Shown here: positions 54,248-58,061 of the stretch, in pieces
How the letters are laid out: each line of letters begins with the position of its first letter
How positions within the stretch are numbered: the first letter of the stretch is position 1
DNA from: Neofusicoccum parvum
Taxonomy: Eukaryota > Ascomycota > Dothideomycetes > Botryosphaeriales > Botryosphaeriaceae
Length of the DNA: 64,000 bases
NCBI GenBank assembly: GCA_020912385.1
Contig: CP087214.1
Coordinates: 372,001-436,000 of the forward strand
Direction of reading: 5' to 3'
Position numbers and translations under genes: made by a program
The notes under the pieces: model-generated
The model's database searches: none
Seen by the model: the letters and a program-made list of their open reading frames with translations, nothing else
Told to the model about the DNA's origin: nothing

Positions 54248-56858
54248 ATGGACAGAAGCTCATGCATCTTACCGTCCAACGCTCCATCACTTCACGATAA
54301 TATCATCGACGACATAGGGGTTCCGAGACCGATCCTGCAGGAGCGTTGCAGCAACCGGCAGGAGGCCTTTCTGGACACCGACCACCGCAAACATGGGCTC
54401 TACCAGCCCGCCGAGAACTTCTACAACGGGGCGGCACAGGGCTACTCCTTAGCATCTTCACAGAGCTCGCACGCCGGTTACGCTCCGCAGACATGGCTGG
54501 CGGACGAAGACGACCGGGTCAGGCAGGAGTGCGCTCGCTTGTGGCGGATGCTGTCCCGGTCGGACGCGTATCGGAAGTATCGAGCTCGGCAGCCGAAGGA
54601 CTGCAGAGAACAAGATCAGAAATGGCCCGAACACATGGAGTTGGCCTTCTTCTCAGGTAGGACACTCTGCATGTTGGCCAATGAGCATTATCGTGGCACT
54701 GACGTGTTCTTGCATTGCAGCGCTCGTCAAGTACCCGCCAATGGGCCGCCGCAAGCAGATGCATGAGGGGAAGCCCCGCGGACGCAACGAGCTGATCGCC
54801 TATGCCATCGAGAAGTGGACCGGTGAGGCTCGCTCAAGGAAGCAGGTCTCGAGTCACATCCAGGTGCTGAAGCCGCTCTTCAAGGAATACCCCAAGAGTC
54901 AGTATACCTGTCCTGTTCAGCCTCGTCTGCTGCTTGCCGCCTTCCTTACACCCGGACTGACGCCGTTAGTCATGAGATACATGTCCAAAGAAGACCTTGA
55001 CCACCGCCGCCATCATCGGCACAATTCGAATGACATGCTGCGGCGGCGATTTGGAGCACAGGCAAGCATGCGTCCGCTAGATTTCAACTCCATCGACCAA
55101 GGCTCGATATACGCACCTCAGCAACATGCCGCGCTGCCGCCACCTCGACAAATGCTTTCTTCAAGCCCTGCCTTGGTGCCCGCTTGCTTCGAGATGAATG
55201 CTCGGGACACTACCTCTGACCCACCCCGCTCCTTGCACTGCTTCACCCGCTTCCACAAGCGCGCAGAGCAGTCCCCGCTTTACGTCTCCGACTTGCAAGA
55301 CCAGTCCTCAAGCGTACCCAAGCACCTTCGGGACATGCTGGATGATAAGGAGTCGCTGATAAACTGCGACGTTATCCTAGCAGAGTCAAGCATCGAACTG
55401 ATGGCTATGCACGCTCCTGGCGAGAGCACGGAGCTAGGAATACAAATCGAGTTCAACAGCAGCTACGAGTACGCGCTGTACGACCACTTCGAGTCGCACA
55501 CGCGCTTCTACACGGGCGAGGACCTGGCAACGGAACCCAAGAGCGTTCTGGGCTATGACACGCACTATAAGAGGTTACACGCCGTAGCTGGCACATTTGG
55601 CAGCGGCTTCTGGGCAGGGAAACTTGGTGAGCTTTCGTTGATTATGCGGAAAGCCTACAAGAAGAAGGGTGACCTCGTCCCCGCACGCGGAGCCGTCCAG
55701 GTTGACGATGAACGTCTTCAGCAGGCGCGAGAGCACGCCAACCAGACGCTCAAGGCACTCAGCGCCGTGCAGGAGATATTCGCCGTGCCCCGCGGCAGCA
55801 TCGCTGCAGCCAACGGGTATGCCCCCGAGCCCGCAGCCCCAGAACGCGTCCTCATCGTCGGATGGACGTTCCGCCATGCGGGCGCCGGCGAGCCTGGAGC
55901 CACGACCTGGCGCCGTGTAATTCTTCCACACCAGCAGTCCCCCAAGGACGAGCAATCTCTAAAGCAAGATTCCCAGCCCTCTTTTATGAGCGGCAGCACG
56001 AACTCCCTCAAGCAAGATCCCACCAACCCATACAGCCAGCTCAGCCTCGAAACCATGCCTACCAGCGGCCTCATCACACCAACAACCTCCACCCACCCCT
56101 CCTTCGACGCATCCGCCCACAACGGCGCCTTCGACCTCGACCCGCTCTCCTCCATCGGCGGGCCCTTCTCCACCGGCTCCGTCGTGTCCCTCTCGTCCGC
56201 CTCGTCCGCGCCGTCCTCGTACCACACGCACCACCAACACCACCACCTCCAGCCGCACCAACCCGTCGCCGTCTGCTCATCCGCCACCACCGCCGACCTC
56301 GTCGGCACGCTCGCCGGCATCCCGCCGCCGCCGCCCGACCACAACGGGCTCGACTTCGCGGGCGGCCAGATCTCGGTGTGGATGGAGCCGTCAGTGTCGA
56401 TGCAGGGCTACTACGACATCTCGTCGGCCACGAACGCCAGCCTCCCCTCGCCGCTCGAGCACCACCACCACCCCCACCACTCGCACCACCACCACCACCC
56501 GGGCCACGTCTCCATCGCCGGCACCCCGAGCGGCCTCGGCCACCACCCCCCGCCGCAGCCGCCCCACACCCCCGTCGGCTACCACGCGACCGGCGCCGGG
56601 CCCGGCTCGGGCGCCGCGGGCGCCGCCGGCGACGCCGGCCTGCAGGCGTACAACCCGCGCGGCTCGTGGGGCGGCTACGGCGGCCTGCTGGAGGCCGAGT
56701 GGCAGCCGCAGGCGGGCGCGGGCGGCGCGGGCGCGTTCGCGGACGGCGCGTTCAAGGACGACGGCGCGCAGGGGAAGCACGGGCATTACCTGGACGACGG
56801 GTCCGGCGCGCAGGCGCAGGGGTACCAGAGGAGGGATAGTGGGATGTTGGGGTTGTAG
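54248..56858 (+). CDS. abaA: TEA/ATTS-domain transcription factor AbaA
   Basis: Exons 54248-54656, 54721-54897 and 54970-56858; 824 aa. The TEA domain at about residues 128-200 is interrupted by intron 1 and ends at intron 2: KWPEHMELAFFSALVKYPPM, GRRKQMHEGKPRGRNELIAY, SRKQVSSHIQVLKPLF. This is the AbaA/Tec1/TEF DNA-binding domain that recognises CATTCY. The middle is a weakly structured regulatory region; the C-terminus is His-, Pro- and Gly-rich. AbaA acts in the nucleus between BrlA and WetA in conidiophore development, controlling phialide differentiation. Promoter elements suggest autoregulation. Intron 2 (72 nt, GTCAGT donor) is stop-free and in frame; I treat it as an intron because removal restores the family-like join KEYPKIMRYMSKEDL. 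Confidence 0.92.
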
Positions 56859-57896
56859 GGGATGGAGGCTGGGGTGCGGGGTTCTTCCTTTCCTTGCGGC
56901 TTTGCGCTGTTGGGGGTTCCCGTGGGAGGCTTGGTGGTGGAGGGAGGGGGATGTGGCGGTGATGGTGACGGTGACGATGACAACGACGATGAAGACGAAG
57001 AAGACGATGATGATGGGAGAGGAGGATGGGGTTCTCGAAAGGGGAGGAGAACGACACTCGCTGGCTGATTGACTGACTGACCGACTGGAACTACTCGCTA
57101 CACTTGTCCATTTATGCCCACTCACGACCTACTTGCTCCACTCGCGCGCGCTCTCCAGCGTCGTTGTTGTTGGCTTTTGGTCTTATATACCCCTCGACCC
57201 TCCACACCCGGAAAAAAAGTTTGCGCTAAATTTTTACCGTTCGGCTTGTTCATCACTCACTTTTGCTTACCGCCCCTTTTATAGTAAGGTAACGTCCCCC
57301 CTAATTTGGAAAATATGAATTATTTCGCTGTTGAGATTGGGCTGCTTCGGCTTTTCCTTGTGTTGTTTTTGGATAGGTCCTAGAGTTAATGCTGAATACT
57401 TGATTCACCAAATGTCTTCTGAGCCTGTGCGGTATGTTCTGATAGCAGTGTGGCATGTTCGTGCCGAAGTGGGTTTTTCATAAGAGGCTGCCTGCATACG
57501 TAATGTATGATTCTGCTCTATGGAAGCCAGTATACTTGCCGGGCATCAGTCCATACGCATGTGGTGTCTTCATGCAAGAAGCTTTCGTGACCTGGCTGCT
57601 GGTTCTTGACTTGTTATCCGTCAGTATCGATGCCAAAGCCCTCGACTGCTTCCGTCCACTACAACGAGTCAGGAAAGAGGGTCTCGAGTCTTATTCAGGC
57701 TAAGTATCTTCGCTACGCAGCACTTTGGAAAATAACAAAACGGACCACGAGGACATAGTCAGCGCTTCAATGGCAAAACTCCGACTCCAGCACCAGGAGC
57801 GGCCACGCCATGGTGCCCGCTACCCAGGTCTCATGAGACAAAAGAGCAAAAAGATGGAGCTGACCAGTCTGAGACTGGTAAGGACTACAAATTCCT
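56859..57896. other. intergenic region, abaA 3' side
   Basis: 1038 bp. It holds the abaA 3' UTR on the left and, on the right, sequence just downstream of the minus-strand tRNA-Phe: an inverted repeat (CCAGTC/GACTGG, 57864-57878) and a run of five T on the minus strand near 57848-57852 that could end Pol III transcription. No protein gene was recognised. Confidence 0.5.
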
Positions 57897-58061
57897 TGCA
57901 GCTTCTGTGGATCGAACACAGTACCTCCAGATACCGCACAGAATACTGTGGATGGCGTTGGCCGAAGTTGACTTCAGTCTGCTGCTTGTTAGCGGGGAGT
58001 CGAGAGACGGTGAAGGCTGAGTAGGACTAACCTGGCGCTCTCCCAAGTGAGCTAAAGCTGC
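57897..58061 (-). tRNA. tRNA-Phe(GAA) interrupted by two segments (39-nt canonical intron and 53-nt insertion)
   Basis: Minus strand. Acceptor stem GCAGCTT/AAGCTGC (7 Watson-Crick pairs), D-arm GCTC/GAGC with TGGGA loop, T-arm CTGTG TTCGATC CACAG, discriminator A. A box (TAGCTCACTTGG) and B box (GTTCGATCC) are intact. Removing 57979-58031 and 57933-57971 leaves a 73-nt molecule with anticodon arm CCAGA CTGAAGA TCTGG (anticodon GAA). This is nearly identical to yeast tRNA-Phe as I remember it; differences are mostly in the acceptor stem. The 39-nt segment follows position 37 and contains ACTTC able to pair with the anticodon, as in ordinary tRNA introns. The 53-nt segment splits the 5' strand of the anticodon stem. 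Positions 15 and 48 (C and A) do not form a standard Levitt pair, so a pseudogene is possible. Confidence 0.8.
57979..58031 (-). other. 53-nt spliceosomal-intron-like segment inside tRNA-Phe
   Basis: On the minus strand it begins GTTAGT, has GCTAACA with the branch A 13 nt from the 3' end, and ends CAG: the complete signal set of a short fungal mRNA intron. It lies between the first four bases and the fifth base of the anticodon-stem 5' strand (CCAG | A). CAG occurs at both edges, so the exact boundary can slide by three bases. Precise removal restores a perfect 5-bp stem. Confidence 0.65.

Follow-up and report, generated by a model that had tools for sequence, protein, structure and literature searches.

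Spliceosomal-type introns in a tRNA-Phe gene and other tRNA genes of Neofusicoccum parvum

Introns in small structured RNA genes

The introns of eukaryotic tRNA genes are thought to be removed by the tRNA endonuclease, and not by the spliceosome. The introns described here resemble these canonical ones, which are processed by endonuclease and ligase, in lying within tRNA genes, but they are extra introns at other positions, and they have GT, CTAAC and YAG. Ascomycete rDNA carries spliceosomal introns, that is, mRNA-type introns in a non-coding RNA gene as is the case here, albeit in rRNA and not in tRNA. U6 is a product of Pol III. According to PMC5832005, introns often interrupt just two small structured RNAs, U3 and U6, and U3 is called a Pol III product there; these introns are therefore a precedent for the splicing of such small structured transcripts. 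As in the fungal U6 snRNA and U3 snoRNA genes, we find mRNA-type introns in small structured RNA genes of the Pol III kind, with intron-bearing and intron-free copies in one genome. Unlike U6 and U3, the host genes here belong to eight tRNA families and mostly have a canonical intron too, and some of the spliceosomal-type introns hold a promoter box.

Introns in the D arm, the anticodon stem and the T arm, with several per tRNA gene, are described for archaea, nucleomorphs and Cyanidioschyzon merolae in a review (PMC4090602). In contrast to what we propose, they are credited there to the endonuclease and a bulge-helix-bulge, or left unexplained, and the string 'spliceosom' has 0 occurrences in the main text of that review. 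A 2026 review (PMC13149111) keeps tRNA splicing separate from the spliceosome. Among the titles and abstract openings of the open-licence literature, we found no report of spliceosomal introns in nuclear tRNA genes. Because the literature found does not describe them, we lowered our prior for the reading proposed below.

A tRNA-Phe gene with two introns

The window (the whole 64,000-nt stretch of DNA analysed) contains a tRNA-Phe(GAA) gene on its minus strand, running from 58061 to 57897. An earlier note, made from the letters alone, had recognized in it a 53-nt segment and a 39-nt canonical segment, and both are indeed found, at the positions given in Table 1. Read from 5' to 3', the minus strand gives the acceptor strand, the D arm and the CCAG of the anticodon stem, followed by the 53-nt insert between tRNA positions 30 and 31; then come ACTGAAG with the anticodon GAA, the 39-nt canonical intron and the remainder of the tRNA. 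The insert has GTTAGT at its start, CTAAC within and CAG at its end. Over both strands of the window, this association of donor, branch and acceptor signals occurs in 4 of 3,324,360 (start, length) pairs; two of these correspond to the insert, counted once for each of its possible ends, which leaves two others (~6e-7). It was also absent (0/200,000) from mononucleotide shuffles of each of the three tRNA-Phe inserts of this genome. The earlier note went further and took the signals to be exactly those of the short mRNA introns of this genome, a claim that the window does not bear out: a strict search yielded 2 intron-like stretches versus 2 in the reversed control, and the donor GTTAGT is one base off GTRWGT. 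ARAGORN with default settings called no tRNA in the whole window, and an Rfam search of the 3 kb around the gene returned only two sub-threshold matches, to unrelated families. The window also encodes, at 54681-56858, a 725-aa TEA-domain protein with 98% identity over 99% to a Neofusicoccum parvum protein.

Table 1. Features of the window tRNA-Phe gene, the other tRNA-Phe genes, and tRNA positions of the spliceosomal-type introns (intron position numbers assigned by reading)
Feature	Coordinates	Strand	Remarks
tRNA-Phe(GAA) gene, two introns	57897..58061	-	the genome search found five tRNA-Phe genes, this one included
Exon 1, tRNA positions 1-30	58032..58061	-	same in 5/5 copies
A box region	58043..58054	-	sequence reading; we take it to lie at tRNA positions 8-19
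53-nt spliceosomal-type intron	57979..58031	-	tRNA position 30/31
5' splice site GTTAGT	58026..58031	-	GTAAGC in two sister genes
Branch-site consensus CTAAC	57988..57992	-	found in 14/14 introns
Tandem acceptor CAGCAG	57979..57984	-	tRNA-Phe restored by second CAG only
Exon 2, ACTGAAG	57972..57978	-	anticodon GAA
39-nt canonical intron	57933..57971	-	at 37/38; tRNA endonuclease is the expected cutter
Exon 3	57897..57932	-	variable region, T arm, acceptor strand
B box GTTCGATCC	57909..57917	-	uncut in the window gene; sequence reading
3' trailer	57862..57896	-	two predicted hairpins; common to all five tRNA-Phe genes
T5 run	57848..57852	-	probable Pol III terminator, 45 nt past tRNA 3' end
tRNA-Phe without insert	C1:2386880-2386987		
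tRNA-Phe without insert	C9:471350-471454		
tRNA-Phe with 54-nt insert	C3:2827500-2827666		at 30/31
tRNA-Phe with 65-nt insert	C10:920927-921101		at 30/31
Phe, three genes			intron at 30/31
Leu-CAG, two genes (L014, L067)			intron at 25/26
Initiator Met (L048)			intron at about 24/25
Ala-TGC (L140)			intron at 9/10
Pro-AGG, two genes (L068, L120)			intron at 57/58
Pro-CGG, two genes (L135, L136)			intron at 57/58
Arg-CCT, two genes (L107, L071)			intron at 57/58
Asp (L078)			intron at 59/60

The 73-nt exon sequence of this tRNA-Phe, used as a query against its own genome, was found in five places. Three of the five genes (C3, C10 and the window copy) have an insert, at exactly the same site, and the exons are identical at 73/73 positions across all five copies. 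A whole-genome scan for the D arm, allowing up to 3 mismatches, gave nine matches, corresponding to the five tRNA-Phe, two tRNA-Thr and two places without an ARAGORN tRNA, and revealed no further tRNA-Phe. An early Phe pattern allowed a gap of up to 30, too little for canonical introns of at least 32 nt, and therefore had no match. In all five genes (window 57848-57896, minus strand; L049, L050, L055, L057) the tRNA is followed by a 3' trailer of ~45-55 nt with two predicted hairpins and then T5; both-side changes are seen in 3/12 of the hairpin pairs.

The copies bearing an insert could be pseudogenes or silenced genes, with the work done by the two insert-free tRNA-Phe genes. These two genes do exist, and among the 14 genes described below the window copy ranks with the weakest because of its off-consensus donor and tandem acceptor, a combination that may lead to imperfect splicing: with a cut after the first of its two CAGs, the tRNA would retain three additional bases. 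However, the exons are the same in every copy, the splice signals are preserved within unrelated intron bodies, the two Leu-CAG genes found both have an intron, stems show compensatory changes and T runs are preserved. We consequently regard the loss of function of these copies as quite unlikely. The silencing that the earlier note had envisaged finds no support in the exons or in the stems of initiator Met and Arg-CCT, and its reading of a non-standard 15-48 pair as decay does not hold, given that the C15/A48 combination is present in all five identical copies.

When the signals are removed, the three Phe insert bodies are 0.49-0.60 identical, versus shuffled means of 0.52-0.57; therefore, only the splice signals are kept. 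It seems that one old intron site in tRNA-Phe has retained just its donor, branch site and acceptor, and bodies at the shuffled level suggest that these introns are old. A very different history would be the recent insertion of an introner-like element, or of other mobile DNA, into tRNA genes. It would agree with several genes being affected and with the CAG found at both the exon end and the intron end in the window copy. Part of the earlier note's proposal of a CAG target duplication stands, since the two do resemble a 3-bp duplication, but they equally make up the tandem CAGCAG acceptor. Used as one genome query, however, the 14 introns gave 14 matches at E up to 10, each to its own place, in a search of limited sensitivity that ignores very common words and may overlook copies that have diverged. 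Together with the lack of likeness between the Phe bodies, this speaks against the newly inserted introner of the earlier note, and we hold such an origin to be highly improbable. The intron pairs of Leu-CAG and Pro-CGG have higher identities (0.80 and 0.91) than the Phe introns, and look like younger duplicates.

Spliceosomal-type introns in other tRNA families

In total, 14 tRNA genes from 8 tRNA families have a spliceosomal-type intron among roughly 75 tRNA genes seen, a tally that is biased by one pattern search that targeted the junction itself. The survey is partial: out of 860 candidates, 63 were scored in the Rfam tRNA search, and any single DNA or pattern search addressed either some D-arm types or one type of junction. 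The eleven inserts outside tRNA-Phe are 54-58 nt long and lie at five positions other than 30/31 (Table 1); the isotypes of Ala-TGC and Asp were assigned by hand, as ARAGORN mislabelled them. The intron is present in one of the two initiator Met genes seen and in 1/6 of the Asp genes with the same D arm, while the D arm AGT(N)GGTTATGGC has 16 exact matches across the whole genome, two of which belong to Leu-CAG genes, both with the intron. A canonical-site intron is also present in 13/14 genes (Asp being judged by comparison with its sister genes). A set of fungal tRNAs used as a single query led to Leu and Pro only, missing a second Pro-AGG gene that the intron-removal script described below later found, and the Rfam tRNA model reported two of the 14 genes at its cut-off, one of them partially.

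Some of the tRNA genes encountered deserve a description of their own. Canonical introns are common among those seen, and are long (62-71 nt) in seven tRNA-Gly(GCC) genes (L009, L010, L011, L077, L082, L083, L084). One Arg-CCT gene (L071, minus strand) has a canonical-site intron of ~79 nt plus the T-loop intron, and reaches a gene length of 207 nt. The acceptor stem of Ala-TGC (L140) shows one T-T mismatch by reading. One Leu(AAG)-like gene (L093) is degenerate, its T arm being broken, and is probably a tRNA pseudogene.

We compared the introns with the fungal consensus reported in PMC5832005: a GTRWGT donor with GT invariant, an RCTRAY branch site 6-36 nt from the acceptor, and a YAG acceptor. 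The GT start, the G at +5, CTAAC and YAG are each present in 14/14 introns, which are 53-65 nt long with 9-14 nt from CTAAC to the intron end. The donor is GTAAGT in nine of them and agrees with GTRWGT in ten; the other four deviate by one base (GTTAGT in the window copy, GTAAGC in the two Phe sisters and GTAGGT in Asp). The leading R of the branch site is present in 9/14 and absent from 5/14. Cutting at the first YAG past CTAAC restores the tRNA in 13/14 cases, the exception being the window copy, where the second CAG of CAGCAG is needed.

The effect of removing the introns was assessed in two ways. A script cut out stretches of 42-110 nt with a GTNNGY-type donor, CTRAY and YAG, and sought a tRNA across the junction; its input was 127 of 141 loci (the 14 left out were mostly overlapping duplicates), with only the 900 central bases of loci longer than 1300 bases. 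It produced 117 candidates and 20 hits covering 13/14 genes, some of which were also hit through a second or third acceptor, versus 106 candidates and 0 hits on reversed sequences. The fourteenth gene (L071) was spotted by eye. Two of the hits, in L011, were rejected as spurious, the tRNA there being complete without splicing. ARAGORN, for its part, was right for 0/14 genes with introns kept (5 wrong calls, 9 without a call), and found a tRNA in 14/14 with introns removed, with a clear isotype label in 12.

Alternatively, the tRNA endonuclease might excise these inserts at a bulge-helix-bulge, as non-canonical tRNA introns of the kind found in archaea, nucleomorphs and Cyanidioschyzon. PMC4090602 lends this some weight, with archaeal introns at 25/26 and 30/31 and a nucleomorph tRNA-Phe with two introns. 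But a full central helix of 4 pairs is found at 0/14 sites (0-3 of 4 pairs) and a full outer helix at 1/14, in a test that is weak, as five canonical controls had 4/4 outer but reached only 2/4 central. The endonuclease would also leave the presence of GT, CTAAC and YAG in every intron unexplained, and we judge its involvement at these sites very unlikely.

Pol III signals, promoter boxes and the proposed maturation route

Neither the window gene nor any of the other thirteen has an internal T4 run, and T5 or longer begins +6 to +47 nt after each gene end; for the introns alone, the absence of T4 could be due to chance (0.22). The B box is uncut in 7 genes, cut at 57/58 in 6 and cut near its end in Asp, while the A box is cut by the intron in Ala. 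In this Ala-TGC gene the intron (164-220 in L140) falls inside the A box, and its donor side TAGTGAGTTT may mimic part of an A box. In the six genes with an intron at 57/58, the B box is interrupted after GTTCG and before A. A perfect GTTCRANNC is present in four of these introns, always at intron offset 12, and the remaining two have a box with one mismatch (L068 at offset 13, L071 at offset 4, with a second one-mismatch box by reading at offset 13 in L071). In the other eight introns, a B box at up to 1 mismatch is found in 0/8. The association of intron boxes with position 57/58 has a Fisher value of 0.0003, or 0.015 for perfect boxes only, with paralogs counted apart; as the paired 57/58 genes are paralogs, these are about three independent cases and not six. 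The chance of a perfect box per shuffled intron is ~0.7%, versus 11-14% for a one-mismatch box, and in one intron the fixed ends alone always give the latter; therefore, only perfect boxes weigh much, and these trace back to some three independent lineages. It is probable that the box in the intron replaces the broken B box for transcription where a 57/58 intron cuts it. A search of the genome with B-box patterns was discarded as unusable because they are too common (417 and 424 places versus 273 and 295 in the control).

The loci could alternatively be Pol II non-coding RNAs with tRNA-like parts, for which splicing by the spliceosome would be ordinary. This would account for the splice signals, and the structured trailer of the tRNA-Phe genes could be seen in the same light. 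Against it, T5 follows every gene and internal T4 is found in none, most of the genes retain the B box or have a match to it within the intron, and the D-arm scan of the genome left no other tRNA-Phe. We grant this possibility next to no probability.

In our opinion, the window tRNA-Phe gene is very likely functional and transcribed by Pol III, with the 53-nt insert as a short spliceosomal intron of the U2 type, and the same would apply to at least 13 other tRNA genes. One proposal of the earlier note placed an mRNA-type intron within a gene of the Pol III class, and it has been strengthened by the number of genes and tRNA families involved and by the B boxes inside the introns that cut a B box. 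The stems point in the same direction: three compensatory pairs separate the initiator Met gene that has the intron from the one that lacks it, and the Arg-CCT genes, which both have an intron, are distinguished by two such pairs in the anticodon stem, changes that fit selection on the spliced product.

From these sequences, a two-step maturation can be envisaged. Pol III would transcribe the window gene from its A and B boxes up to the T5 run, and the spliceosome would then join tRNA positions 30 and 31 through GTTAGT, CTAAC and CAG, an order of events that we infer. This joining would allow the anticodon stem to form, after which the tRNA endonuclease and the ligase could take out the intron at 37/38. 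The other tRNA genes with such introns, 13 or more in this genome, would follow the same route. Where a T-loop intron cuts the B box, the intron's own B box would serve as promoter before being spliced out. Another Leu tRNA could read CTG codons in part through wobble, and in two long window ORFs the share of CTG among Leu codons is 0.30 and 0.25. Given this possible wobble, we consider it only likely that the spliceosome is needed for CTG decoding via Leu-CAG.

More broadly, we lean towards the view that tRNA maturation in this fungal lineage regularly employs the spliceosome as one of its enzymes, that whole isoacceptor sets (such as Leu-CAG) require the tRNA endonuclease as well as the spliceosome, and that the B box for Pol III lies within the T-loop introns, in which case some of the promoter would be spliced out and the mature T loop rebuilt at the exon junction. 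If this is true, a set of at least 14 tRNA genes needing the spliceosome would break the division between tRNA splicing and the spliceosome, and would tie translation to spliceosome activity. It would also mean that tRNA annotation overlooks such genes, as the 2/14 recovered by the Rfam model at cut-off illustrate, and would show how even very short Pol III genes can come to harbour introns.
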